From a virus, in the IMG/VR virus record IMGVR_UViG_3300048102_000225, positions 1 to 25,552 of that record: a stretch of DNA of 25,552 nucleotides; one strand, given 5' to 3'. The translations under genes and the position numbers were made by a program. Below are positions 2,777-25,552 of this stretch, piece by piece; within the stretch, counting starts at the first letter, position 1; every line of letters starts with the position of its first letter. The notes beneath the pieces are model-generated. The model saw nothing but the letters and a program-made list of their open reading frames with translations, was not told the DNA's origin and did no database searches.

Positions 2777-4513
2777 ATGACCAGCTCCAAAGTTTATTCA
2801 GGTGTCACCTACTCCAGTCCAGCAGTCGGTTCGACGAACTTTGCCCTGACTTCGGACGCTGGCAATGCCATTGAGTATTTGTCGCAGGACCATATCAAGG
2901 TTGAGTCCAGCGCAGACGGAACTGTTTGGACAACTCTTGTAATTACTACTGACTACACATTCAACAGTAATGGCACAGAGATAGTTTTAGTTGTTCCTAC
3001 AGTAGAAGACCAGCAGATACGAATTAATAGATACACGCCATTGTCGGCTCAATACGTCACGTTTAGTGATGGTTCACTGCTGACGTCAAATCAGCTAAAT
3101 AAAGCTGAGCGGTTTTCACTGTTCTGTGATCAGGAAATTGTCGATGGAAACGTTGGTTTTGACCCTAGCGACATTGGCTTAGACAGTACTGACGATCTGC
3201 CAGAAGGCAGCGTCAATCTCTATTACACCGATGCACGGGTTGAGGCATGGGTTGATGCCAACCTTGCCGATACGGATGCTCTTGCTGAGGGTTCGACAAA
3301 CCTCTATTACACCGACGAAAGGGTCCAAGGACTGCTGGACGCAGGTGGATATAAGCCTGGCGGGGGTGACGGGGGCGGCATTCCCGAAGCCCCAAGCGAT
3401 GGGAAGCAGTATGGACGTCAGAGCGAAGGTTGGACTGAAATCGTCAGTGGCGCTAGCGGTGTCACCAAGCTCATTGCAGGAACAAACGTCACGATCAGCC
3501 CAACCAGCGGCGTTGGTGAAGTCACGATCAACAGCACTGGCGGTGGCAGTGGCCCTGGCGGTGATCCTGAGTGGGTGCTGGATGGCAATAATCTAGAGCC
3601 TAAAGCTGATACGACAAACGTTGTTATTGGCGACGGTGAAATAACACTCAGCGCAGACGGCTCGGCATCGTTTACTGGTTCTGTAAATGTCAATCGTGCC
3701 GACGGTTCTACTTCCGATGGTTTTTCTGTCGAAGCTGGAACTAAGAAAAGATTTGGTGTTGACGCATCAGGAAGTCTCAAACTAAGTGATGATATTAGAA
3801 ATGATGTAACAGTAGGTGTTGAGCTGAAGGCAAACGGCTCGGCATCGTTTACTGGTGGAACTAATTTTATCCAACCAAGCGGAAATCAACAGTGGGGTGG
3901 AGCTGCTGCATCTGGAGTAAAAGGTTTTCTTGTCTCTGTAAATGGAACTTCTTACGCTTGTCCTTCAGCTGGATCCGAAGCTTATCTTGCGTATAACGAA
4001 GGATCTGAAATACCAACCGTAACCATTAAAGGTGACGGCACGGGGACGTTTGCTGGAACTGTTAAATCAGGAGATTCCACTTTTGCTGCTCTAAACCGTG
4101 GATATATTGTTAATCAAAATTCTGCTGCAGATGGAAATAGTATTTTTATCCGCTGCCGCAAATCTGCTGGAGATCATCAATTTGAAGTTCTTGGTGATGG
4201 CACTACACATATTGGTGGCAGTATCACGGGGGATCCTGCTACAACCGAGCCTAATATCAAATTAAGTTCTAACGGCAGTGCAACGTTTGCTGGCACTGTA
4301 AAAGTAGAAGGAGATTCCACTCCAGTTGGAAAATATAGTGCAATTAGTAAATATGGCTCTCTTTTAATCGGAACAGCTAGTGATATTGTTTCTGATGCTC
4401 GTTTGTCAGTTGATGCTGGTAACGGAAATCTTATTTCAAGCGGCTCGGCGACGTTCGCTGGCAAAGTAAATGCCACAGGTTATCGCATTGATCAATTGCA
4501 GACACTGCCATGA
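2777..4513 (+). CDS. 17: Tail fibre protein, T7 gp17-type N-terminus
   Basis: This 578-residue protein should be the receptor-binding tail fibre. Residues 1 to about 125 match the T7 gp17 N-terminal tail-attachment domain: a YSG..YS start, then beta-rich IKVESSADGT, DYTFN and LTSNQLNKAERFSLF segments. Two NLYYTD-R copies follow (nt 3218 and 3302), then a Gly-rich linker (nt 3355-3570). About five G-SATFAG/SASFTG repeats follow (nt 3650, 3830, 4035, 4270, 4440), a pattern expected of a trimeric beta shaft. The distal half shares nothing with T7 gp17, as expected for a host-specific tip. A strong ribosome-binding site precedes it, and its stop overlaps the next start (ATGA). Family assignment of the N-terminus is firm; the receptor is unknown. 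Confidence 0.88.
   Translation: MTSSKVYSGVTYSSPAVGSTNFALTSDAGNAIEYLSQDHIKVESSADGTVWTTLVITTDYTFNSNGTEIVLVVPTVEDQQIRINRYTPLSAQYVTFSDGSLLTSNQLNKAERFSLFCDQEIVDGNVGFDPSDIGLDSTDDLPEGSVNLYYTDARVEAWVDANLADTDALAEGSTNLYYTDERVQGLLDAGGYKPGGGDGGGIPEAPSDGKQYGRQSEGWTEIVSGASGVTKLIAGTNVTISPTSGVGEVTINSTGGGSGPGGDPEWVLDGNNLEPKADTTNVVIGDGEITLSADGSASFTGSVNVNRADGSTSDGFSVEAGTKKRFGVDASGSLKLSDDIRNDVTVGVELKANGSASFTGGTNFIQPSGNQQWGGAAASGVKGFLVSVNGTSYACPSAGSEAYLAYNEGSEIPTVTIKGDGTGTFAGTVKSGDSTFAALNRGYIVNQNSAADGNSIFIRCRKSAGDHQFEVLGDGTTHIGGSITGDPATTEPNIKLSSNGSATFAGTVKVEGDSTPVGKYSAISKYGSLLIGTASDIVSDARLSVDAGNGNLISSGSATFAGKVNATGYRIDQLQTLP
3658..3856 (+). repeat. Identical 22-nt repeats within the tail fibre shaft
   Basis: The 22-base string starting CGGCTCGGCATCG occurs identically at 3658-3679 and 3835-3856. 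Diverged copies lie near 4035, 4272 and 4441. They encode the recurring G-SASFTG/SATFAG shaft motif. The identical pair could support recombination that changes fibre length. Confidence 0.7.
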
Positions 4514-7500
4514 GCACTATTGATCCCAATGACAAGTTCCTCGTACAAAGAGGAGAAAACTCTTACCGCACCAACGCTTCCGAACTCATGAGCACAATCG
4601 ATACAACTAAGGACTGGATGCTGATCCAGCGAGGCGAGAACAGCTTTAAGGTTTCAGCCCAGGATGTCAAAGATCAGCTTGGATCAGGTGAAGGAGGTGA
4701 CCCTGTAATTATTAGCACCGCTCTTGTTCAAGATCAAACTAATAGCAATCGCTTTACCGGCAATTCTTTTACGACGGAAGTTAATGGCGCACAAGTGGCC
4801 CAGCTCAAGATGGAAGCTTCCGTTACTGGTGCTTTATCTATTGAAGGCACAACTGATGTTGTTGAAGAAAATAACTCTACAGGTTCTAGTTCAATTCCAC
4901 TTAAGCTGAAAACTGATTTTAATTTAAACAACGGTACGTTTGAGGTTGGTGATGTAGTTCAGACAAGTGGTACTTATCAGCCAGTCACGAGTGAGATTAC
5001 TAATGTTACTCAAGCGCTGAATATGGTGGCAAGCAATTGGGGTTCACCTGGCCGAGTACTTAACGGTGATCAGAGCACAAAAGGTAGCAGTGTGAATTTT
5101 TCAGCTAGTGATACTGACGAATGGGGCACTATTGATTTTGGAGAAGAGATTGATGTAACTTCGTTTAATGCTTTTACTAGAATTCTTTCCGTACCAAATC
5201 AATTTAGATTAGTTGACGAAGCTGGTAATGTCGTCCATTTTGTGCAAGATTTTCCAACACAAGGAGCAAACCCCACTGTTATTTACAGCGGACTTCCTAT
5301 AAAAGCACGTTATTATCAACAAAGGGTATTTAATGGTGGTATTTGGACTTCTGATGATTTCCATACTTTTAATCTTAATGGGCCACAAGTTATTTGTAGC
5401 AATGTAGATGTAGCTGCTGGTACTGGAACATATGAACTAGATAATACAATTCTTGAATTTGCTGATAACACAGACCTTAAATACTTCCAGGCTGGAGATG
5501 TTGTTAAAGCTGCCGAATATGCAGTTGGTGCGGAGGTAGTTCCGGGAGGTGTAGATTTTACATCACCACCTGATGCAAATTATCAAGAACGTTTTAGCAA
5601 TATCTTTGGCCCAGAAAACGCAACCTTTTACAAGTCAGGCAAGACAGATATAACTGTTACGTTTACACCACCACTGGAATATGTAGGTGGTCAAATGCAG
5701 ATGTACCATGCAAAAATCAATGGAATTGAGATTTTCTATGAAGAGGGCGGAACTACTTATTTCGACCCAAATGAGAGTAATACTGGTATAAGCACTATAA
5801 ACATACAGCCTGATCAGACCATTCGTCAAATTAGGTTCTTTACCTCCCCAGGTTCAGTTAATAACTCGGTCTCTTGGATCAAGTTGAGTGGTCAAGTTGT
5901 TACTCTAAGCCTTGACCAGTTTAAAGTTGTCAGTACCAACGTAGCTGCTAACAAAATGATTGTTGATGGTGGTGACTGGTCTACCGGCAATACCGTCACC
6001 GTCCCTGCTAAACGTGGTGAGGGAACTATTAGCAGCATCAGTGGTACTAACGTTGTCATCGCTCCCTTTGTTGACAATGCATTTATCACTGATCAATACT
6101 TAGTACATAAGGAACCTAAGGTTGTTACTGTAACGCCTAAGTCTGATTCTATTGATGATTATGACAGAGCTACAAAAGTGCTTGCTTTAAGTGGTGATAA
6201 GGATCTTCTTGATTTTGCAACAGGTGATGAAGTTTCAATGTGTGATGCTGATGGCAATCCTGCTCAAGCAACTGTTGAGACCAGCGGTGTTACAACAACT
6301 GAAGCGAAAGATATATGGGCACCCGTTGCTCAAGATATTGATGCTGATGGAGCCTATAACAACGGTAACGGCAATTTAGGTAAGATCTTGGACACCGACG
6401 CAACTAGTGGTGTTCAGCTTGATTCTAACGGTGGAGATAGTTTTAATGGTGTCAGATTCAACATACCAATAACTTCTACAGACGGGTCAGGATTAGAGAT
6501 CGGAATTTATACCGTTTCTCATGGCAATTATTTTGCAGGTACAGTCAAGGTTAATAACGTTGATTACACTACACCGGGTTTGCCACCTATCCCTAATGAA
6601 TATGGCCCAGGGGAGATGGTTGTTCCAATACCAGTTGGAAACATATCATTAACAAGTGTCAAAGGAAGAGCCTTCAGCGGTGGCGCTACAGGCTTGACTT
6701 ATATTCGCAATGCTGGCAATAAGCAGTTGCTTGTGGATCAGGCTAGGTTTACGCCTACTCCAGAAAATGGCGGGCAACAATTAATCGTTAATTTTGAAGA
6801 CAATACCAACCTTCAATACTTTAAGGCTGGTGATGTTTTAAAGAGTCAAGTTCCTACAGGCAATCCTGATTGGAACGAAACCAAGATGTGGAGTAACTTT
6901 ATATCTAGTCAATCAGGCTCATGGGGCAGTGGAACACCATCTAATGTTTTTGATGGCAACACTGGAACTGATGTGCTTGAAGAAACTGCAATAACGTTTA
7001 ATCCGCCTGATCTTACTTTTACAGATAAAATCGAAATCTATACGTCTACCAATAACAATAACGATGGCAGTAAGGTCTATCGTGTCATAACTACTAATGG
7101 CACTTACGAGACAACAGCAGGTTCAGCTAATAGTGCGCATGGCAATTATTACGTGGGCTGGGTAACGATGACTCAAGATATGTCCTCCGGTAGCAAGGGG
7201 CCTATTCTTGAGATCTACACTGGTCAGTCAGACGTTTGGAATAGCTGGTATGCCGTCAGGGTCGACGGGAAGATTTTGGTGGACCCCTCAGGAAGCATCT
7301 CAGTTGTTAAATCAGAACCTGAAAATAACAGGTTATTTGTTACCGCTTTAACCGTAACGGCAGGCGAAACTTTCAGTAAATCAATATCGGGTACCGGCAC
7401 TATAGACATTGTTGATCCAATGACTAGCACGATTACACTTTCAGCGTCTAATGATGAATGGGCTGCGGATTATTACGTAACAACTCCAGCCAAGCCTGCT

Positions 7501-7962
7501 GTTTCAATGACAGCTTATTTGAACTTTGATGGCGATGGCGCTGTAACTGGCTTACAAAGTTTTCCTTACAGCTCTTTGATGCTCAACGTATACTCACCTA
7601 CTCTTACATTCCCTAATACTTTCTCAACTGGTGACGCTCCTGATGTAAGTATCCCATCACCTAGTTATCTGCAAACAGCTGTAACAGGTATTGGTGATGT
7701 TGATACAGAGAAGGTAAGTAGTAACATTTTGTTCCCTGCTACCACCACTGTTCTTGGACTAAAGACACCAAAGACTTATACCACTGAGGAATTCGGTGAG
7801 TTCTGCCGGTGGGCTTGTTCTTATGAATACCGTGATGCTGTTAAGACAGTCCAAGATACTGAGGAAACTGTTGCTGACCTAAGAGAGAAGGCTGAAAAAC
7901 TAGCATTAAACTTTATCAATGCCCAAGCAGAAAAGAAAAGCCCCTCGGGGGAAGGGGCCTAA
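4510..7962 (+). CDS. Large multi-module fibre / adhesin-like structural protein
   Basis: This 1150-residue protein starts in an ATGA overlap with the tail fibre, so the two are probably co-translated. Residues 1-26 and 27-52 are a tandem duplication around a (F/M)L(V/I)QRGENS core. The rest shows about four modules. Each begins with a GDVV/GDEV strand motif (residues near 144, 320, 575 and 768), often inside an F-DNT-L-YF-AGDVVK phrase. After each comes about 110-130 residues with N-FDG/LD-D-T-type and WS-F patterns that look like discoidin/galactose-binding beta sandwiches. The C-terminal ~65 residues are predicted helical and charged. Third codon positions and overall bases are visibly AT-richer than in the head genes. 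Position and repeats suggest a secondary fibre or adhesin on the virion; the sugar-binding idea is inference. Confidence 0.65.
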   Translation: MSTIDPNDKFLVQRGENSYRTNASELMSTIDTTKDWMLIQRGENSFKVSAQDVKDQLGSGEGGDPVIISTALVQDQTNSNRFTGNSFTTEVNGAQVAQLKMEASVTGALSIEGTTDVVEENNSTGSSSIPLKLKTDFNLNNGTFEVGDVVQTSGTYQPVTSEITNVTQALNMVASNWGSPGRVLNGDQSTKGSSVNFSASDTDEWGTIDFGEEIDVTSFNAFTRILSVPNQFRLVDEAGNVVHFVQDFPTQGANPTVIYSGLPIKARYYQQRVFNGGIWTSDDFHTFNLNGPQVICSNVDVAAGTGTYELDNTILEFADNTDLKYFQAGDVVKAAEYAVGAEVVPGGVDFTSPPDANYQERFSNIFGPENATFYKSGKTDITVTFTPPLEYVGGQMQMYHAKINGIEIFYEEGGTTYFDPNESNTGISTINIQPDQTIRQIRFFTSPGSVNNSVSWIKLSGQVVTLSLDQFKVVSTNVAANKMIVDGGDWSTGNTVTVPAKRGEGTISSISGTNVVIAPFVDNAFITDQYLVHKEPKVVTVTPKSDSIDDYDRATKVLALSGDKDLLDFATGDEVSMCDADGNPAQATVETSGVTTTEAKDIWAPVAQDIDADGAYNNGNGNLGKILDTDATSGVQLDSNGGDSFNGVRFNIPITSTDGSGLEIGIYTVSHGNYFAGTVKVNNVDYTTPGLPPIPNEYGPGEMVVPIPVGNISLTSVKGRAFSGGATGLTYIRNAGNKQLLVDQARFTPTPENGGQQLIVNFEDNTNLQYFKAGDVLKSQVPTGNPDWNETKMWSNFISSQSGSWGSGTPSNVFDGNTGTDVLEETAITFNPPDLTFTDKIEIYTSTNNNNDGSKVYRVITTNGTYETTAGSANSAHGNYYVGWVTMTQDMSSGSKGPILEIYTGQSDVWNSWYAVRVDGKILVDPSGSISVVKSEPENNRLFVTALTVTAGETFSKSISGTGTIDIVDPMTSTITLSASNDEWAADYYVTTPAKPAVSMTAYLNFDGDGAVTGLQSFPYSSLMLNVYSPTLTFPNTFSTGDAPDVSIPSPSYLQTAVTGIGDVDTEKVSSNILFPATTTVLGLKTPKTYTTEEFGEFCRWACSYEYRDAVKTVQDTEETVADLREKAEKLALNFINAQAEKKSPSGEGA
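7931..7958 (-). terminator. Rho-independent terminator of the minus-strand operon
   Basis: Read on the minus strand, a GCCCC...GGGGC hairpin (7954-7958 pairing with 7940-7944, nine-base loop) is followed by TTTTCTTTTC (7940 down to 7931). It lies about 45 bases past the stop of the cyAbrB-like gene. On the plus strand the hairpin is followed by CTAATGCG with no T-run, so it should not act on the fibre transcript. It is embedded in the final codons of the converging fibre gene. Confidence 0.75.
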
Positions 7963-8001: not shown

Positions 8002-8385
8002 TCATGCCGCCATAGGTGTCAATCCACAAGCTGGATCAGGAGCAGGTTGAAGGACTAAAGCCTCACCGTCCTTGACGACCTCAACGTAAGAGCCAGGCTC
8101 CCAGTTCATTTCTTTGGTGTAAGTAGGTCCGACAGGGATTGTGCCTTGGGGGCCAACTTTCAGGCGATAACCTGCTTTCTTGCCAGTACCTGGCTTGTTA
8201 GCAGGCGTTCCAAGTTGCACGCCTTGTGCAGCTGCAATAGCCATGAAAAAGCTTTGTCTCTGCAGACCTTCGACACCATTGCGGGTGGCGACATAACCAG
8301 CGCCAGCAATTTGTGCTGTGAGGTCCATGTCTTGATTCTCTCTGATGTAGTCAAGAAGCTCTTGACCCGTAAGTTTGGTTGCCAT
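8002..8385 (-). CDS. Cyanobacterial AbrB-like (cyAbrB) transcription regulator
   Basis: This 127-residue protein has the layout of cyAbrB regulators of cyanobacteria. It has an N-terminal helical part (TGQELLDYIRENQ..., then the family's 'GY..TRNG...FF.A.AAA.G' stretch). The C-terminal part (residues ~70-120) has YRLKV...G.I.VGPTYTKEM...PG..VEV, which I recognise as the family's DNA-binding hairpin. In hosts, cyAbrB proteins modulate nitrogen and carbon metabolism genes. Here it is the last gene of the virion operon, 35 bases after the internal virion protein gene and just before the operon terminator. I chose the ATG at 8385 because it gives the usual MATKLTG start; a GTG at 8409 would add eight residues. 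Neither has a Shine-Dalgarno. Family is confident; targets and timing are unknown. Confidence 0.85.
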   Translation of the reverse strand: MATKLTGQELLDYIRENQDMDLTAQIAGAGYVATRNGVEGLQRQSFFMAIAAAQGVQLGTPANKPGTGKKAGYRLKVGPQGTIPVGPTYTKEMNWEPGSYVEVVKDGEALVLQPAPDPACGLTPMAA

Positions 8386-8420
8386 TGTGAATGGTTGACA
8401 CCGTTTCACATTAGCAGTGT

Positions 8421-9866
8421 TCAGTAGAATCGCAATCCAGTGCTTGTAAATTCACTGAACTTCAGCGATTGATCTACGCCTGCAAAAATTGCATTCCCGT
8501 ATTGACTGATTGGGCTTTGCATTGGTGTTGACGTTGGCACCAGCTTCTCTGGTTCCAACCCTCTTGTCGGAGCAATTGGATCAAAGATGATTGAGTCTCT
8601 GTATGGAGTAGAGGCTGACTCAATTGATGACTTGGTTTGCAGGTAGAGACCGCTCATCTCTCTAATCCCTTGCCGTCTCGCAACGTCAAACGAAGGCAGC
8701 GTCAGTTGATTGGTGCCGCGTCGTGCTGAGTTGTAAGACAGGGCTACCTTCTCTTTGGCTGATTTCAGGCCTCGCTTAATGCCTGTGATCTGGTTGCGTG
8801 ACATCTTGCTGGCAACGCCAAAGTTCTCCAGCATCTCTTCTCGCTCATTGATCACAGCCAGTTGCTGCAGCCTCAGTGAGTTGTTCTTGACTTTCTGTTG
8901 GCTGATTAAATTGCCGCTGCGCTCTGCCATGGTCATCATGTCCTGCGACAGCTGAGCCATTTCCTTGGCACGTGGCCCTTGCACCTCAGCGTTAAAGCCA
9001 GCCTGCTTAGCCATCTGCTGTTGCTTGAGCATTTGAATCTGCCCATACGTGCGGCCAAACTCTTGGGCAGCATTCATGGCAATGCGTCTGCCAGTTGCTG
9101 TGCCGCCAGTTCGTGCTGCTGCTGTTGCTTTAGCTCCTGCACCTTCAAAGGCACTTTGGATGGCGAGCACGTCACGCTCCATCAGCTTCTGTTTCATCTC
9201 CAGTGCGTTCTGCTCCTGAAGGGTTACGCCTTTGTTTTCTAGGTTCTGCCTAAGAATGTTCCGCTGCCTGCGTTTTGATCTAACGCCCTGCAGCAACTCA
9301 TATACCTGCTGTGTTGTTTGCTGCTGGTTGACCCTCGCCTGTTGTGCAAGGTTCTTGCGGCGAACTTCATAGTTTAAATCTGATATGTCCTGCTCGTTCT
9401 GTAGCTTCTTGTCGTTATATCTAATGTCATCCGCTTTTGTTTTTGCTTGCCTGATTTGGCTTTTCCGTTCGTTTGTATTGGTGCCCTCAAGATCCTTTAA
9501 CTTGAGCTTTGCTTCTGTAGCCCGCAGTCCTTCCTCAAGTTTGTACTTGTCTTGCAACGCACTACTGTTCAGCCGCAGATTGTTCAGTGCCTGATCTAGC
9601 AGTTGATCAGTTCTGAATTCATAGTCTGACTTTCTTTGTCTCTCAGTAAATCTTTGTGCTTCTGTCTTTGCCATGTCCCAAGCAAAGGCTGCACCTGCCT
9701 GGTCCCACTCAATGTCATATTCCAACATCGCCCGTTCAAAGTTTGCCTGATTGATTTTGGCTGCTTTCTTCTTGCCAGTAGCCTGAGCGGTACGCTGAGC
9801 GCTTGACTGCATTATTGATGAGGCAAAGCTCAGTCCGCCAAGGATCAAAGAAATTGCGCCGATCAT
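8421..9866 (-). CDS. Coiled-coil internal virion protein (gp14-like by position)
   Basis: This 481-residue protein starts with a short hydrophobic segment (ISLILGGLSFASSIM, residues 5-19). A long Lys/Gln/Glu/Arg-rich helical region (about 25-340) follows, with strong coiled-coil character and a Gly/Ala-rich stretch near 240-260. The start overlaps the stop of tail tubular protein B (TGATG), which is where T7 internal core protein gp14 lies (after gp12 and gp13). T7 gp14 is 196 residues, so this is much longer and may combine the roles of gp14 with part of the missing gp15; that is inference. By family knowledge such proteins form the inner core and are ejected into the host envelope. Sequence similarity to gp14 is weak, so the call rests on position, N-terminal hydrophobicity and helix content. 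Confidence 0.6.
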   Translation of the reverse strand: MIGAISLILGGLSFASSIMQSSAQRTAQATGKKKAAKINQANFERAMLEYDIEWDQAGAAFAWDMAKTEAQRFTERQRKSDYEFRTDQLLDQALNNLRLNSSALQDKYKLEEGLRATEAKLKLKDLEGTNTNERKSQIRQAKTKADDIRYNDKKLQNEQDISDLNYEVRRKNLAQQARVNQQQTTQQVYELLQGVRSKRRQRNILRQNLENKGVTLQEQNALEMKQKLMERDVLAIQSAFEGAGAKATAAARTGGTATGRRIAMNAAQEFGRTYGQIQMLKQQQMAKQAGFNAEVQGPRAKEMAQLSQDMMTMAERSGNLISQQKVKNNSLRLQQLAVINEREEMLENFGVASKMSRNQITGIKRGLKSAKEKVALSYNSARRGTNQLTLPSFDVARRQGIREMSGLYLQTKSSIESASTPYRDSIIFDPIAPTRGLEPEKLVPTSTPMQSPISQYGNAIFAGVDQSLKFSEFTSTGLRFY

Positions 9867-12463
9867 CAGTTAAGTGCCTTTGCTCGATTGCTATAAGCAC
9901 CTTCCCAACACGCTGATGTCAGCACGATTGGAAGGTGGTTATCTGACTCGACACTAACGGTTGCCTCTAGGTTCCGGCAATAGACAGGAACACGGAATGA
10001 GCCATCTCCAAGAAATGCAGTGTTAGTCAATGTTGTATTACTGACAGCAAGCTGTCGTGCTCTAAATGTATGCACAGTGTCTGTCGCTCTATTCTGACGT
10101 TTTACTCTCACTTGATAATAACCAGTGTTGTAGTGATTAACCTGCCAGGTCAGCACCTGCGTCCTGCCTTCTAAGTTGCCCACCACCTTCCGTTTGGATT
10201 GATCTGGCTCTGGCACAAATGCTGTAGTGAACGTGTATTCAAATTTGTACTTCTCACCAATGAACACCTGTGCGTCAGTGAAGTCACCGTCTTCCGTGCA
10301 GACCAGTGTGTTGGTTGTAGTACTGCCAAGGATCAACCCGCAGTTCGTTTGGCCCAGATACCTAATGCCTGCCACTGCATCAGTCAGTGGGGTGTACGGC
10401 AGAACAAAAGTTGTCTTATCAGTGGTGGCGTTATAGGTGGCTGTCACGTCATCACTGGTGGCTGTGTTGTTATTGCACTCGGGATACAGCAGCAACCTGT
10501 CCAGATGTGGCTGGATCGCATCTTCCGTTTCTATCTCATCGGCAAAGTAGGTCACACCAAACAGACCAGTGCCGTCATCCAAAAGAACTGACAGCACGTT
10601 GTCGATGAATTGGAACCAGCGCACATTGCCTGCCAGTTTCCACTTGCTCCATGAGGCCTGCACCTTCTGGATCCCACCGTCGCCTGACGTCCATAGGTAC
10701 TTGTAGATGTAGAGGATGGATCGATCGTTAGGACTGCTGGCTACTGCAAAGTCCACTGCCTCACCCACATCAAAATGTGTGACCAGACCCGGCAGATACT
10801 TCGGCAGGTTCAGCATCGTGTCGTTGCTGCCGCCCAAGTTCAAACCCAGTCGCCGCTGCGTTGCATTAAAGAACTGGTATTCCCTGAAGTGGGTGTAGCC
10901 ATATTCAATTGATGGGAACAAAACCTGAGCACCAGCCTTCTTGGGTCTGACGTTCGGGTTCATGTCGATGTTGGACAACCGGATCACGATCCCGGTCAGT
11001 GGCGTCAACACATCACCATCCGCTGCCCTGATCTGAAACTGACTCTTGGCACTGAAGGTCAGGATGCTGTCGTCAACCGCAAGCATCCATTCCAGTGGTG
11101 AGCTGACCTCGCTCTGGCATCGCAACGAGAACGAGTCTGTTGCTGTGATCTGCTGTGCCGTATCAAGGAAGAAATTAAATGCGTCGTCGGTTTCGCTAAA
11201 CACGATCGACTCACCAGCTAGCACCGTGTAGCGCTGCCGGAAGATCTGATGATCACGGATGGGCTGACCTAAGAAGTCAGGGTCAGGGACCGTCTCTGTA
11301 TTCCCTGCTGTCCGCTCACCCCACTTGGGGAACGTGTATTCAGTGCCATCTAGATTCTTTTTTACTCCGTCAGCTGGCCCAATAAAAATCTTGTCCTCAG
11401 CCTGGCGATACAGCACCAGCGGCATGGTGTTGTCATTCAGCTTGAACTGGACTCCTGGCGCTGGACATTCAGACCAGTTGCCTTCACCCATGTCATTGCC
11501 ATTGAAGGTTTCAAACTTCAGCCACAGGTCATCAATGTTTGTGCCCGGATCGTTCTCAACCTTGACCCTGTAGGTGTTCTTGCCAATCAATGGCAGGTAA
11601 CTGGTCAGAGCCACTGAGTCAGTGAATGCCCTGGCTAATGCATTGGATCTGCTGTCATCCATCTTTAGATCCATGTCCGTATCGTCTTTCTTCTTGAGCC
11701 AGATCACATACTGCTCACGCTTCTTTTCGTATGTGTCTGGGATCTGACTAAACAGCTCTTGAGCCACAGTCGATGTACTGATCTCGTTGTCATCATCATC
11801 AGACTTTGGCGTTGTAAACGTTGCTATCTCTGTGTCGCCATCACTCAATGTGTACTTGATTGAATAGGCAACAGATTGAATGAACACCATGCCCCACTTT
11901 TCTAGGTCTGGTGTTTCGTCATTGGTGTATGACGTGCTGATATTCCTGTTGGCCAGCAAGCCCAATGGCCCACTGCTGGTCAGCACATATCCCTTGTAAA
12001 GCTCTTTCGCAGTCTTGGCTGCAGTGTTTGCCAGGTAGCTGCCGGTCTCTATCTTCCAACCGGGCAAGCTGTTCTGCACGTCATAACTCAGACCAGTCCC
12101 ATGGACGTCCACTTTGGTGCTGTCCATTGGCGCACCGTCGCGCCATACCTCAAGTCGCAGCTCGTCATTGCTGTTGTAACCATCCCAGATGAAAACTGAA
12201 TAACGCTCTGTTGAGCTGATTCTCCAGATAGCCAGGTAGAAATCATCTACTGATTGGTTCAGCAGCTTGCTCTGCATCCGAAATGGATTGCGTTTCGTCA
12301 GCCCTTCCACCGGACTAGACCAGCCATTGATCTGCTCTGTCCCCTGACCTACCGCCCTGATGTGTGGCGGTTGCTGGCTGACACCCTGAGTCAGCGTGTC
12401 GATCTTTACTTCGACAGGTGCAGCAGCCGGATTGACGCGGCGCTGAATCTTGGATTTGGGCAT
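9866..12463 (-). CDS. 12: Tail tubular protein B (T7 gp12-like nozzle)
   Basis: This 865-residue protein is the tail nozzle. Near its start are the family signature IDTLTQGVSQQPPHIR and, soon after, EQINGWSSPVEGLTKRNP, both typical of T7 gp12 proteins. The centre carries the FRQRYTVLAGESIVFSETDDAFNFF and NPNVRPKKAGAQVLFPS regions seen in the family. T7 gp12 is 794 residues, so length fits. An in-frame ATG at 12526 exists, but the ATG at 12463 gives the usual basic start (MPKSKIQRR) and forms a TGATG overlap with the stop of tail tubular protein A. In the virion it forms the distal tail tube below gp11. Confidence 0.93.
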   Translation of the reverse strand: MPKSKIQRRVNPAAAPVEVKIDTLTQGVSQQPPHIRAVGQGTEQINGWSSPVEGLTKRNPFRMQSKLLNQSVDDFYLAIWRISSTERYSVFIWDGYNSNDELRLEVWRDGAPMDSTKVDVHGTGLSYDVQNSLPGWKIETGSYLANTAAKTAKELYKGYVLTSSGPLGLLANRNISTSYTNDETPDLEKWGMVFIQSVAYSIKYTLSDGDTEIATFTTPKSDDDDNEISTSTVAQELFSQIPDTYEKKREQYVIWLKKKDDTDMDLKMDDSRSNALARAFTDSVALTSYLPLIGKNTYRVKVENDPGTNIDDLWLKFETFNGNDMGEGNWSECPAPGVQFKLNDNTMPLVLYRQAEDKIFIGPADGVKKNLDGTEYTFPKWGERTAGNTETVPDPDFLGQPIRDHQIFRQRYTVLAGESIVFSETDDAFNFFLDTAQQITATDSFSLRCQSEVSSPLEWMLAVDDSILTFSAKSQFQIRAADGDVLTPLTGIVIRLSNIDMNPNVRPKKAGAQVLFPSIEYGYTHFREYQFFNATQRRLGLNLGGSNDTMLNLPKYLPGLVTHFDVGEAVDFAVASSPNDRSILYIYKYLWTSGDGGIQKVQASWSKWKLAGNVRWFQFIDNVLSVLLDDGTGLFGVTYFADEIETEDAIQPHLDRLLLYPECNNNTATSDDVTATYNATTDKTTFVLPYTPLTDAVAGIRYLGQTNCGLILGSTTTNTLVCTEDGDFTDAQVFIGEKYKFEYTFTTAFVPEPDQSKRKVVGNLEGRTQVLTWQVNHYNTGYYQVRVKRQNRATDTVHTFRARQLAVSNTTLTNTAFLGDGSFRVPVYCRNLEATVSVESDNHLPIVLTSACWEGAYSNRAKALN

Positions 12464-13086
12464 CAGCTTCTGTTGTAACGAAGGCCTTGTACTGGTTGAT
12501 AGCCAATGCCTTGGCCCATCCCCCAATTGTTTCCATACAGCATGTTGTTCTGCTGCCCTGCTTCCTCAGCTCTGATCAACTGGTTACGGGCATACTCCTC
12601 ATCACCAATCGTGTACTGATAGATCACGTTGCTATTGATGAATCGATCTGAGTAGATCCGCGCTGATCTGATCGTGATGTACTGCTGCCCTGCATGAGGA
12701 CATTCATCCCAGTCAATGTTGCGGACCAGCTCGTTCACCGTGACCTTGTCCACCACATCACCAAAGTCAAACTTCCGCAGGTTCTTGTCGTAGACCTTCA
12801 GCCCCCTCTGCACGTACTCCATGTATGGATAGGAGCTGGGATGGAAGGTGACACGCAGCGTGTCTGATGGCAGAGCAAACTCGTTGCTGCTGTTCTTGTT
12901 GATGGGGTAGCCAACGTCTGTGTTCCAGCTCCACCCCTCAGCCAGCACATCACGCTTGACCTCTGTCAGGGTCTTTCGCGCTAGTGCTGCATCAGTGATG
13001 TCATTGGTTGTCAGTGATGGCAGTGCATCAACAGGTGCTTCACCAATGACGCTGAGCAGTGTGTTGATTGCTTCGAGTTCAGTCAT
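12463..13086 (-). CDS. 11: Tail tubular protein A (T7 gp11-like adaptor)
   Basis: This 207-residue protein matches T7 gp11 (196 residues). It has an N-terminal EAINTLLSVIGEAPVDAL, then a long helix (LTEVKRDVLAEGWSWNTD) and the conserved FALPSDTLRV segment. It forms the ring connecting the portal to the tail nozzle. Its ATG overlaps the preceding stop by four bases (ATGA), and its own stop overlaps the next start (TGATG), so gp11 and gp12 are probably translationally coupled. Confidence 0.95.
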   Translation of the reverse strand: MTELEAINTLLSVIGEAPVDALPSLTTNDITDAALARKTLTEVKRDVLAEGWSWNTDVGYPINKNSSNEFALPSDTLRVTFHPSSYPYMEYVQRGLKVYDKNLRKFDFGDVVDKVTVNELVRNIDWDECPHAGQQYITIRSARIYSDRFINSNVIYQYTIGDEEYARNQLIRAEEAGQQNNMLYGNNWGMGQGIGYQPVQGLRYNRS

Positions 13087-14436: not shown

Positions 14437-15477
14437 TCACTGGGAGTTGTAGATCTCAACGCAGCATTCAGGGCGAAGTGGTGCAAAACCACAGGCGTAC
14501 TTGGCCACCATCAAAGTTGATTGATACATTGTATTGTAATCATTGCCTGTCATTTGCATAGACAAATCACGAAGCTTGACTACACCTGCAGCGCCTCTTT
14601 GATACGCCAACATTTTAGTTTGACGCATGTCAACAGAAGACAGAGTTACATCTGATCCGTTGAATGTGTAGCCCTGTTCACCAGCGGCTGCAGTTACATT
14701 GCCCTGTGCAATGTTGTTAGAGGCGATGATTGTGAATCCAGCCAGCTTAGCAATCTGACCCTCTTTGTAAGAGCCATTTGCACCTTGCTGGTTGAAGTCA
14801 AAGTTGACAGCCCTACTTGACTGGATCAACGTATAAAAACTTTCTGGCGTACAAGCCAGAATTCTGCCCTCTGAACTAACATCTTTTTCGTCTAATGCTC
14901 GTGCTGCAGCAAACACTGAAGCGACAAGATCATCAGCAGTTGGAGTTGCTTTGTTCAGGTCAATACGTGAACCAGTACGTGCTGCTTGATCAGGTGTCAA
15001 TCCAGTTGGACTGTTAGCCTGCAAGTCAGCAGTAGATGTTCTTGCACCTAAAGTCAACACTCTAGCAAGACGTTTGTCGTAGGCTCTTGATAAAGCCTCG
15101 CCCAATTCTGTGCTATAGATTGACCTTATGTCAAAATGATTCTTGGCGTCATCGAGATCATAAAGCGTTGCATCTGCAATCAGAAGATCATCAATTTTGA
15201 CGACGACTTCGTTTTGCTCAAGTTGACCTTGACCGACAATCATCTTGCCGGGAGTGTGGAAAGAACTTGTGAACCTACCAGTTACAGGGAACTGTGCAGA
15301 TTTACCGTTCTGTATAGTACGATTTTGAACAGTGTCTCCAAACACGTTTACACGTTTGAAGGCTGATAGTACCTCTCCACTAAAGACCTTGAGGAAAAGT
15401 GCGTTGTCTTTTGTCCAAGAACCGGAGTCGCCTTTAGCTACACCGGGCCGTGAAAGTGTTAGATCTGGAGCTGCCAT
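14437..15477 (-). CDS. 10: Major capsid protein (T7 gp10A-like)
   Basis: This 346-residue protein is the size of T7 gp10A (344) and has the family signature. An N-terminal DLTLSRPGVAKGD is followed by LFLKVFSGEVLSAFKRVNVF and the strand NGKSAQFPVTGRF...PGKMIVGQGQ. The HK97-like core follows, with ALSRAYDKRLARVLTLGAR and FYTLIQSSRAVNFDFN. It lies downstream of the scaffold gene and is followed by a strong terminator, as in T7. The ATG at 15477 has no Shine-Dalgarno. I found no evidence of a frameshifted long form. Confidence 0.95.
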   Translation of the reverse strand: MAAPDLTLSRPGVAKGDSGSWTKDNALFLKVFSGEVLSAFKRVNVFGDTVQNRTIQNGKSAQFPVTGRFTSSFHTPGKMIVGQGQLEQNEVVVKIDDLLIADATLYDLDDAKNHFDIRSIYSTELGEALSRAYDKRLARVLTLGARTSTADLQANSPTGLTPDQAARTGSRIDLNKATPTADDLVASVFAAARALDEKDVSSEGRILACTPESFYTLIQSSRAVNFDFNQQGANGSYKEGQIAKLAGFTIIASNNIAQGNVTAAAGEQGYTFNGSDVTLSSVDMRQTKMLAYQRGAAGVVKLRDLSMQMTGNDYNTMYQSTLMVAKYACGFAPLRPECCVEIYNSQ

Positions 15478-22752: not shown

Positions 22753-22766
22753 TGCTAACGTTAGCA
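22753..22766. promoter_or_regulatory. Perfect 14-bp palindrome, possible operator
   Basis: TGCTAACGTTAGCA is a perfect inverted repeat in the 56-bp gap before the SSB start, overlapping the possible -10 element. It has no loop and no following T-run, so a protein-binding site fits better than a terminator. The binding protein is unknown. Confidence 0.4.
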
Positions 22767-25323: not shown

Positions 25324-25552
25324 TCATTGCCACGCAAAGGGTTTGGCCGTATTGCCAGTTGACGATTGTTGACCGCTGGCAGGTTTTTCCCACGACGAGA
25401 CACCAGCCAACGCATCCAAGCTCACTGCAGATGAGTGGATGTATCTGTTTGAAATAGCAAGGCTTGTGTGGCCTGCCCATTCCTTGATCTGCACGGCTGA
25501 TGCCCCTTGCATAGCCAGGTTGGTTAGGCATGTGTGCCTAAGGGTGTGGCAG
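25324..25552 (-). CDS. int: Tyrosine recombinase (phage integrase), C-terminal part only
   Basis: The frame is open to the right edge, so only the last 75 residues are seen. They carry the hallmark catalytic end of tyrosine recombinases: HTLRHT (box II His-x-x-Arg), then KEWAGH with the second His, and NRYIH with the nucleophilic Tyr at the usual distance. A 37-residue tail follows. The gene is upstream of RNA polymerase on the same strand, as int is in marine cyanopodoviruses such as P-SSP7. Its presence suggests integration ability; no att site or tRNA fragment is visible nearby. Confidence 0.9.
   Translation of the reverse strand, partial: CHTLRHTCLTNLAMQGASAVQIKEWAGHTSLAISNRYIHSSAVSLDALAGVSSWEKPASGQQSSTGNTAKPFAWQ

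Follow-up and report, generated by a model that had tools for sequence, protein, structure and literature searches.

A cyAbrB-family gene at the end of the virion operon of a Krakvirus-like phage: a possible route for viral interference with host gene silencing

The stretch of viral DNA analyzed here, referred to as the window (25,552 nucleotides), carries on its minus strand, at positions 8002..8385, a gene encoding a 127-residue homologue of the cyanobacterial cyAbrB proteins. The plus-strand reading of 8002-8385 contains a stop. The open reading frame listed at this place begins with GTG and covers 8002-8409 (135 aa), but its homologues favor a start at the ATG of 8383-8385, for a protein of 127 aa. 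The PF14250 (AbrB-like) profile aligns through positions 2-61 of 70 with residues 46-103 of the protein (E 6e-11). The score is 42.7 bits against a curated Pfam cut-off of 25 bits, a match far beyond chance, and the syntenic homologue at L178 scores 36.8 bits with the same model. A tblastn search of the protein against phages returned a single record (E 8e-21, 93% of the length), a six-frame search of cyanobacterial genomes gave a match spanning residues 4-106, and the protein is 36-49% identical to its syntenic counterparts in Krakvirus S39C11 and in IMG/VR contigs. The protein is assigned to no PHROG family. The sequence-only reading of this DNA had called the gene a cyAbrB and proposed an AbrB/cyAbrB HMM search as one check. 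The presence of a cyAbrB-family gene at 8002-8385 is confirmed, with the strand added, and the family call is borne out by that HMM search, by tblastn, by synteny and, weakly, by fold comparison.

The full-length alignment with host proteins shows a two-domain layout consisting of an N-terminal cyanobacterial domain and a C-terminal AbrB-like domain. The N-terminal cyAbrB-specific domain (residues 4-59; 8209..8376, minus strand) was delimited by alignment to 145 host proteins and by an AlphaFold model, in which it is predicted with confidence as a helix-helix-hairpin-helix arrangement (pLDDT ~72-91 per block; mean 68 for the whole protein). The C-terminal domain, putatively of the swapped-hairpin type (residues 69-115; 8041..8181, minus strand), is modeled with uncertainty (pLDDT ~40-67), and its top Foldseek matches, AbrB, MazE and SpoVT, have E ≥ 0.1. 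The stretch matched by PF14250 (8077..8250, minus strand) takes in the end of the N-domain and extends into the AbrB-like one. A profile search found a weak match to 2GLW (E 0.02), an AbrB-like swapped-hairpin protein. A single-sequence search of solved structures returned unrelated chains only, and the N-domain alone had no match among solved structures.

The gene had been described as the last of a virion operon, and the surrounding features bear this out. The operon runs in the order portal, scaffold, capsid, tail tubes, virion protein and then the cyAbrB gene, all on the minus strand. It includes the major capsid protein (14437..15477; PF21703, E 2e-53; 72% identical to that of Krakvirus), tail tubular protein B, the nozzle (9866..12526; PF25675, E 7e-151), and an internal-virion-type, 'T10G3.5'-like virion protein (8421..9866) that lies directly upstream of abrB throughout the lineage, here with a gap of ~35 bases. 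Just after abrB, an intrinsic-terminator-like hairpin (7938..7960, minus strand; folding z-score -2.3) marks the end of the operon, and a tail/fiber gene whose N-terminus resembles the Krakvirus 'lectin' converges on it from the plus strand (4510..7962). The far end of the window cuts through the C-terminus of a tyrosine integrase (25324..25551, minus strand; PF00589; 63% identical to the Krakvirus integrase). With a single-subunit RNA polymerase, a T7-type portal, capsid and tubes, and this integrase end, the window represents a T7-like phage. The RNA polymerase, the T7-type portal, the capsid, the tubes and collinearity place it among the Krakvirus-like T7 phages (Autographiviridae).

The nearest public genome is the uncultured phage MedDCM-OCT-S39-C11 (Krakvirus S39C11, AP013549.1), which most window genes match. 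The virion and replication blocks of the two are collinear, and in both the tail genes lie on the opposite strand. Krakvirus S39C11 is nevertheless a clearly distinct phage, with 38% identity in the RNA polymerase and 72% in the capsid. Its AbrB (BAQ94494.1) belongs to the same family, occupies the same operon position and is 39-40% identical to the window protein. The AbrB identity (39%) is thus similar to that of the RNA polymerase (38%) and the exonuclease (35%). The Krakvirus gene is annotated in GenBank as 'AbrB family transcriptional regulator'; papers discussing it were not found in the literature searched, and it is known as a database annotation only. In IMG/VR, a cyAbrB gene stands in the same place in 13 contigs (L005-L010, L012-L015, L178-L180); in these, as in Krakvirus S39C11, it comes after the virion protein gene and opposite convergent genes. 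A further locus from the first viral scan, L002, was rejected as a false match, a chance peptide in a Mu-like contig. The dN/dS values among the Krakvirus-like copies are 0.007-0.11, indicating strong purifying selection, and therefore the protein is maintained by selection. That the gene is a passenger conferring no benefit, or a mis-annotated reading frame of low similarity, is suggested by its long branch and sequence drift; it is nevertheless very improbable given these dN/dS values, the strict synteny and the significant HMM match. Together the data show that cyAbrB is a core gene of this T7-like lineage (Krakvirus and relatives) and a phage-adapted, long-established member of its family.

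The phage proteins differ from those of hosts at several highly conserved residues. Alignment of the 145 host rows with 11 rows of the phage lineage showed that the cysteine of the ACGY motif (A-C-G-Y) is present in 140/145 host rows and is Ala in 11/11 phage-lineage rows, as Ala29 in the window protein (8299..8301, minus strand). Since five host rows also have no cysteine at this position, it is not strictly defining for cyAbrB. R40, present in 144/145 host rows, is G or S in the phage lineage, and N80, present in all 145 host rows, is Q, R or K. The host's basic R/K-K turn (R107/K108) becomes G/D followed by D/E, so that the window protein has the turn DGEA (residues 106-109; 8059..8070, minus strand) where hosts have the basic G-R-K-H/Q. 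In proteins of the phage lineage the C-domain carries a net charge of about -1 (range -2 to +1; +1 in the window), compared with a host mean of +3.85. Neither the basic G-R/K-K-x-I turn nor a positive C-domain is found in the window lineage; these features are host-typical, and they do not establish a strict definition of cyAbrB. Because the phage rows are related and represent about four distinct lineages, few independent events lie behind the residue losses.

The sequence-only reading had singled out the C-terminal DNA-binding hairpin as the best-matching part of the protein and as an especially close match. The alignment reverses this. The C-domain is the most altered part, with N80 and R107/K108 lost and the positive charge gone; no match covers the final 9 positions of the profile, and on that model almost every host protein reaches 82-123 bits. 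Charge loss alone does not prove that DNA binding is lost, however. The window copy retains K69, K70, R74, K76 and K91, and the AbrB of Bacillus binds DNA despite an acidic turn at the corresponding position. As regards the cysteine, glutathionylation of the conserved cysteine of host cyAbrB2 (C34) blocks DNA binding (PMC4264147, PMC13421787). With Ala at this position, the phage protein is therefore not switchable at that site. Separately, some host cyAbrBs carry ASGY, SAGY or AAGY in place of the cysteine motif (L118, L150 and L173; genome G098), and the redox switch is therefore not universal among cyanobacteria.

These changes bear on whether the phage protein mimics the host regulator, binding DNA by sequence or shape, replacing host cyAbrB at promoters late in infection and redirecting nitrogen and carbon metabolism. 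The retention of the full two-domain architecture under purifying selection fits such a role, as do other phage cyAbrBs that retain a basic domain, one of which adjoins psbA/psbD. In the window lineage, however, the invariant or nearly invariant host C-domain residues and the positive charge are gone and the protein has diverged extremely far from host copies. We regard host mimicry as somewhat unlikely, though as the main rival of the reading preferred below.

The relation to the host proteins was examined in a tree, the phylogeny with host cyAbrBs having been proposed along with the family call. Homologues of cyAbrB were found in 289/291 cyanobacterial genomes (best E 3e-15). The phage proteins of the window lineage form a clade of their own (starred in the tree), which has a very long branch and is separate from every host paralogue. 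Within the family they thus represent an old line of phage proteins and not a fresh host gene. Judged as a host-derived auxiliary gene of the kind exemplified by phage psbA, the window lineage is not nested within host sequences, and recent acquisition from a host is ruled out by the tree and synteny together. The phage copies that lie between terL and portal or beside psbA/psbD, described below, do group among picocyanobacterial cyAbrBs. A joint clade of the window lineage with the terL-portal lineage is compatible with the data (p-AU 0.68), the window branch being long and its composition odd. As a side observation, small picocyanobacterium-sized genomes contain a strongly divergent cyAbrB paralogue (L174, L167, L176) with the motifs ARGCGYVGPSGR and KVHGNGNLLIGHAYTKK, beside normal copies.

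From several lines of evidence we infer strongly that the hosts of the window lineage are picocyanobacteria. Among 14 control genomes PF14250 was found in one only, that of the cyanobacterium Synechococcus elongatus. When group G9 was discovered, its authors were unable to name a host (PMC3861242); later, the Synechococcus isolate S-SRP02 was shown to have its gene order in common with other group G9 phages (PMC8790148). S31-C1 (Nohivirus), another G9 phage, has a full-length tRNA-Met that overlaps the end of its integrase (L184:39797-39869). In a comparison made within cyanobacteria, the best matches of this tRNA are mostly in small picocyanobacterium-sized genomes.

An integrase raises the question of a regulator internal to the phage, one that represses or switches phage promoters, for example in late shutdown or in a lysogeny decision together with the integrase. 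Relatives with an integrase and a MarR-type regulator, and the integrase end in the window itself, would be in keeping with this, and the cyAbrB gene is also present in integrase-bearing relatives. On the other hand, the integrase-bearing relatives S38-C3 and S31-C1 have no cyAbrB, and the gene lies in the virion operon, not adjoining the integrase. Nor was an att site, a prophage or a repeated operator seen: the 291 cyanobacterial genomes contained no match to the region at the integrase end, either that of the window or that of Krakvirus, no prophage-like cyAbrB copy stood out in them, and direct repeats near the gene included no operator- or promoter-like family. The palindrome that the sequence-only reading had offered as a candidate target does not stand up either. 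It is a perfect 14-base palindrome, TGCTAACGTTAGCA, at 22753-22766 in the interval that separates the coding regions of the RNA polymerase and SSB, and with one such 14-mer observed in the window against ~1.6 expected and no good second copy, it is at chance level and is rejected as a special regulatory site. A phage-internal regulator is accordingly considered improbable.

The gene is not confined to Krakvirus-like phages. A scan of IMG/VR with a picocyanobacterial cyAbrB gave 209 contigs, of which 80 were kept. An uncultured lineage related to KBS-S-2A and S-H1 (L213-L223, L225-L230, L233-L270; e.g. L219:6001-6339) carries a complete basic cyAbrB, which lies shortly before the portal in 53/55 contigs, usually after the terminase. 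These terL-portal copies retain the cysteine and the basic C-domain. The portal of this lineage is 81% identical to that of cyanophage KBS-S-2A and 76% to that of S-H1, both isolated on Synechococcus WH7803; the two isolates themselves have other genes in the gap before the portal. In one cyanophage contig type, L231 (5941-6354) and L232, cyAbrB directly follows psbA and psbD. The Prochlorococcus isolate P-TIM68 (KM359505.1 55868-56026; L271:2501-2659) has a 52-aa gene that consists of the cyAbrB N-domain alone, and in Synechococcus phage B23 gp246 (L272:2465-2893) the N-domain is fused to an unrelated C-terminal part. Both of these genes are without the cysteine and are annotated as hypothetical. 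Besides this T7-like ocean phage, at least three other kinds of cyanobacterial phage carry their own altered cyAbrB or N-domain forms. The scan also yielded host-like contigs that may be host DNA (L191-L212, L224), and one contig, L212, that may be host or cyanophage DNA has two different cyAbrB copies. No paper describing recurrent cyAbrB in phages was found, and the association appears to be undescribed in the literature searched.

The position of the gene in two unrelated lineages also bears on whether the protein is packaged in the virion and injected, acting at once on the incoming DNA or on the host nucleoid. Its constant place after the virion protein gene here, and between terminase and portal in the second lineage, would accord with packaging; operon position alone is no proof of it, however, and no targeting signal was recognized, so that we rate a virion-carried protein as distinctly improbable.

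The reading we prefer is that the phage protein associates with host cyAbrB through its N-domain, loosening or redirecting silencing. It is put forward tentatively, at a little less than an even chance. In the host, cyAbrB1 and cyAbrB2 are nucleoid proteins that control carbon and nitrogen metabolism, and they interact with each other (PMC13421787). cyAbrB2 binds AT-rich DNA and has been proposed as an H-NS-like nucleoid protein and a possible guard against foreign DNA (PMC11368403). Association with host cyAbrB through the N-domain seems likeliest because that domain is common to all phage forms, and P-TIM68 has none of the DNA-binding features, which are already weakened in the window protein. 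In the proposed mechanism, the product would be made together with the virion proteins and its N-terminal cyAbrB domain would bind host cyAbrB1/cyAbrB2. Lacking the switch cysteine and the greater part of the basic charge, the phage protein would form mixed assemblies with the host proteins whose DNA binding is weaker or different and which are no longer under redox control. In this way host silencing and regulation would be relaxed as the phage takes over. Loss of DNA binding would not be general among phage cyAbrBs, since in the terL-portal lineage the domain is still basic and the cysteine is present. For an anti-silencer required early, a late position at the operon end is an awkward fit, except in the case that virions carry the protein. 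The ideas of the sequence-only reading, in which DNA binding rewires metabolism or the protein takes part in the lysogeny decision, are conceivable but less likely.

More broadly, several unrelated cyanophage lineages may have repeatedly taken up cyAbrB as a takeover factor, in forms expected of dominant-negative anti-silencers, a proposal that we hold as rather doubtful at present. The forms could be arranged as a series from complete and basic (the terminase-portal lineage) through charge-depleted (the window lineage) to N-domain-only (P-TIM68). If the repeated uptake is real, it would imply a general cyAbrB-based silencing defense in cyanobacteria and viral counter-measures against it. Repeated altered copies in virion or packaging operons of Prochlorococcus and Synechococcus phages would likewise support the idea of an H-NS-like cyAbrB2 from the virus side, a recent proposal (PMC11368403) on which the phage copies bear. 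The data suggest a possible route, undescribed in the papers searched, for viral interference with host gene silencing, and the small phage protein may provide a handle on how cyanophages overcome that silencing and redirect metabolism in the ocean's main photosynthesizers.

Among known systems, the closest include, besides the Krakvirus AbrB, the host proteins cyAbrB1 and cyAbrB2 (Sll0359 and Sll0822 of Synechocystis; PF14250), with which the phage protein has the two-domain layout in common and ~30-40% identity over residues 4-106; it differs from them in having no redox cysteine, RK turn or positive charge, and in forming a separate clade. The solved structures that come nearest to the C-terminal part are the swapped-hairpin proteins Bacillus AbrB, MazE and SpoVT; the similarity is below formal significance, and these proteins have no N-terminal cyAbrB domain. 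In function, the comparison would be with the mimics and antagonists of H-NS carried by phages and plasmids, examples being a phage-encoded H-NS (PMC3097231), an anti-repression phage protein (PMC8501957) and the truncated H-NST (PMC3897749). H-NS belongs to an unrelated protein family, and anti-silencing by phage cyAbrB is proposed by analogy only; the likeness would be that, in both, a mobile element brings in an altered or partial version of the xenogeneic silencer of its host, or else a protein that antagonizes it.
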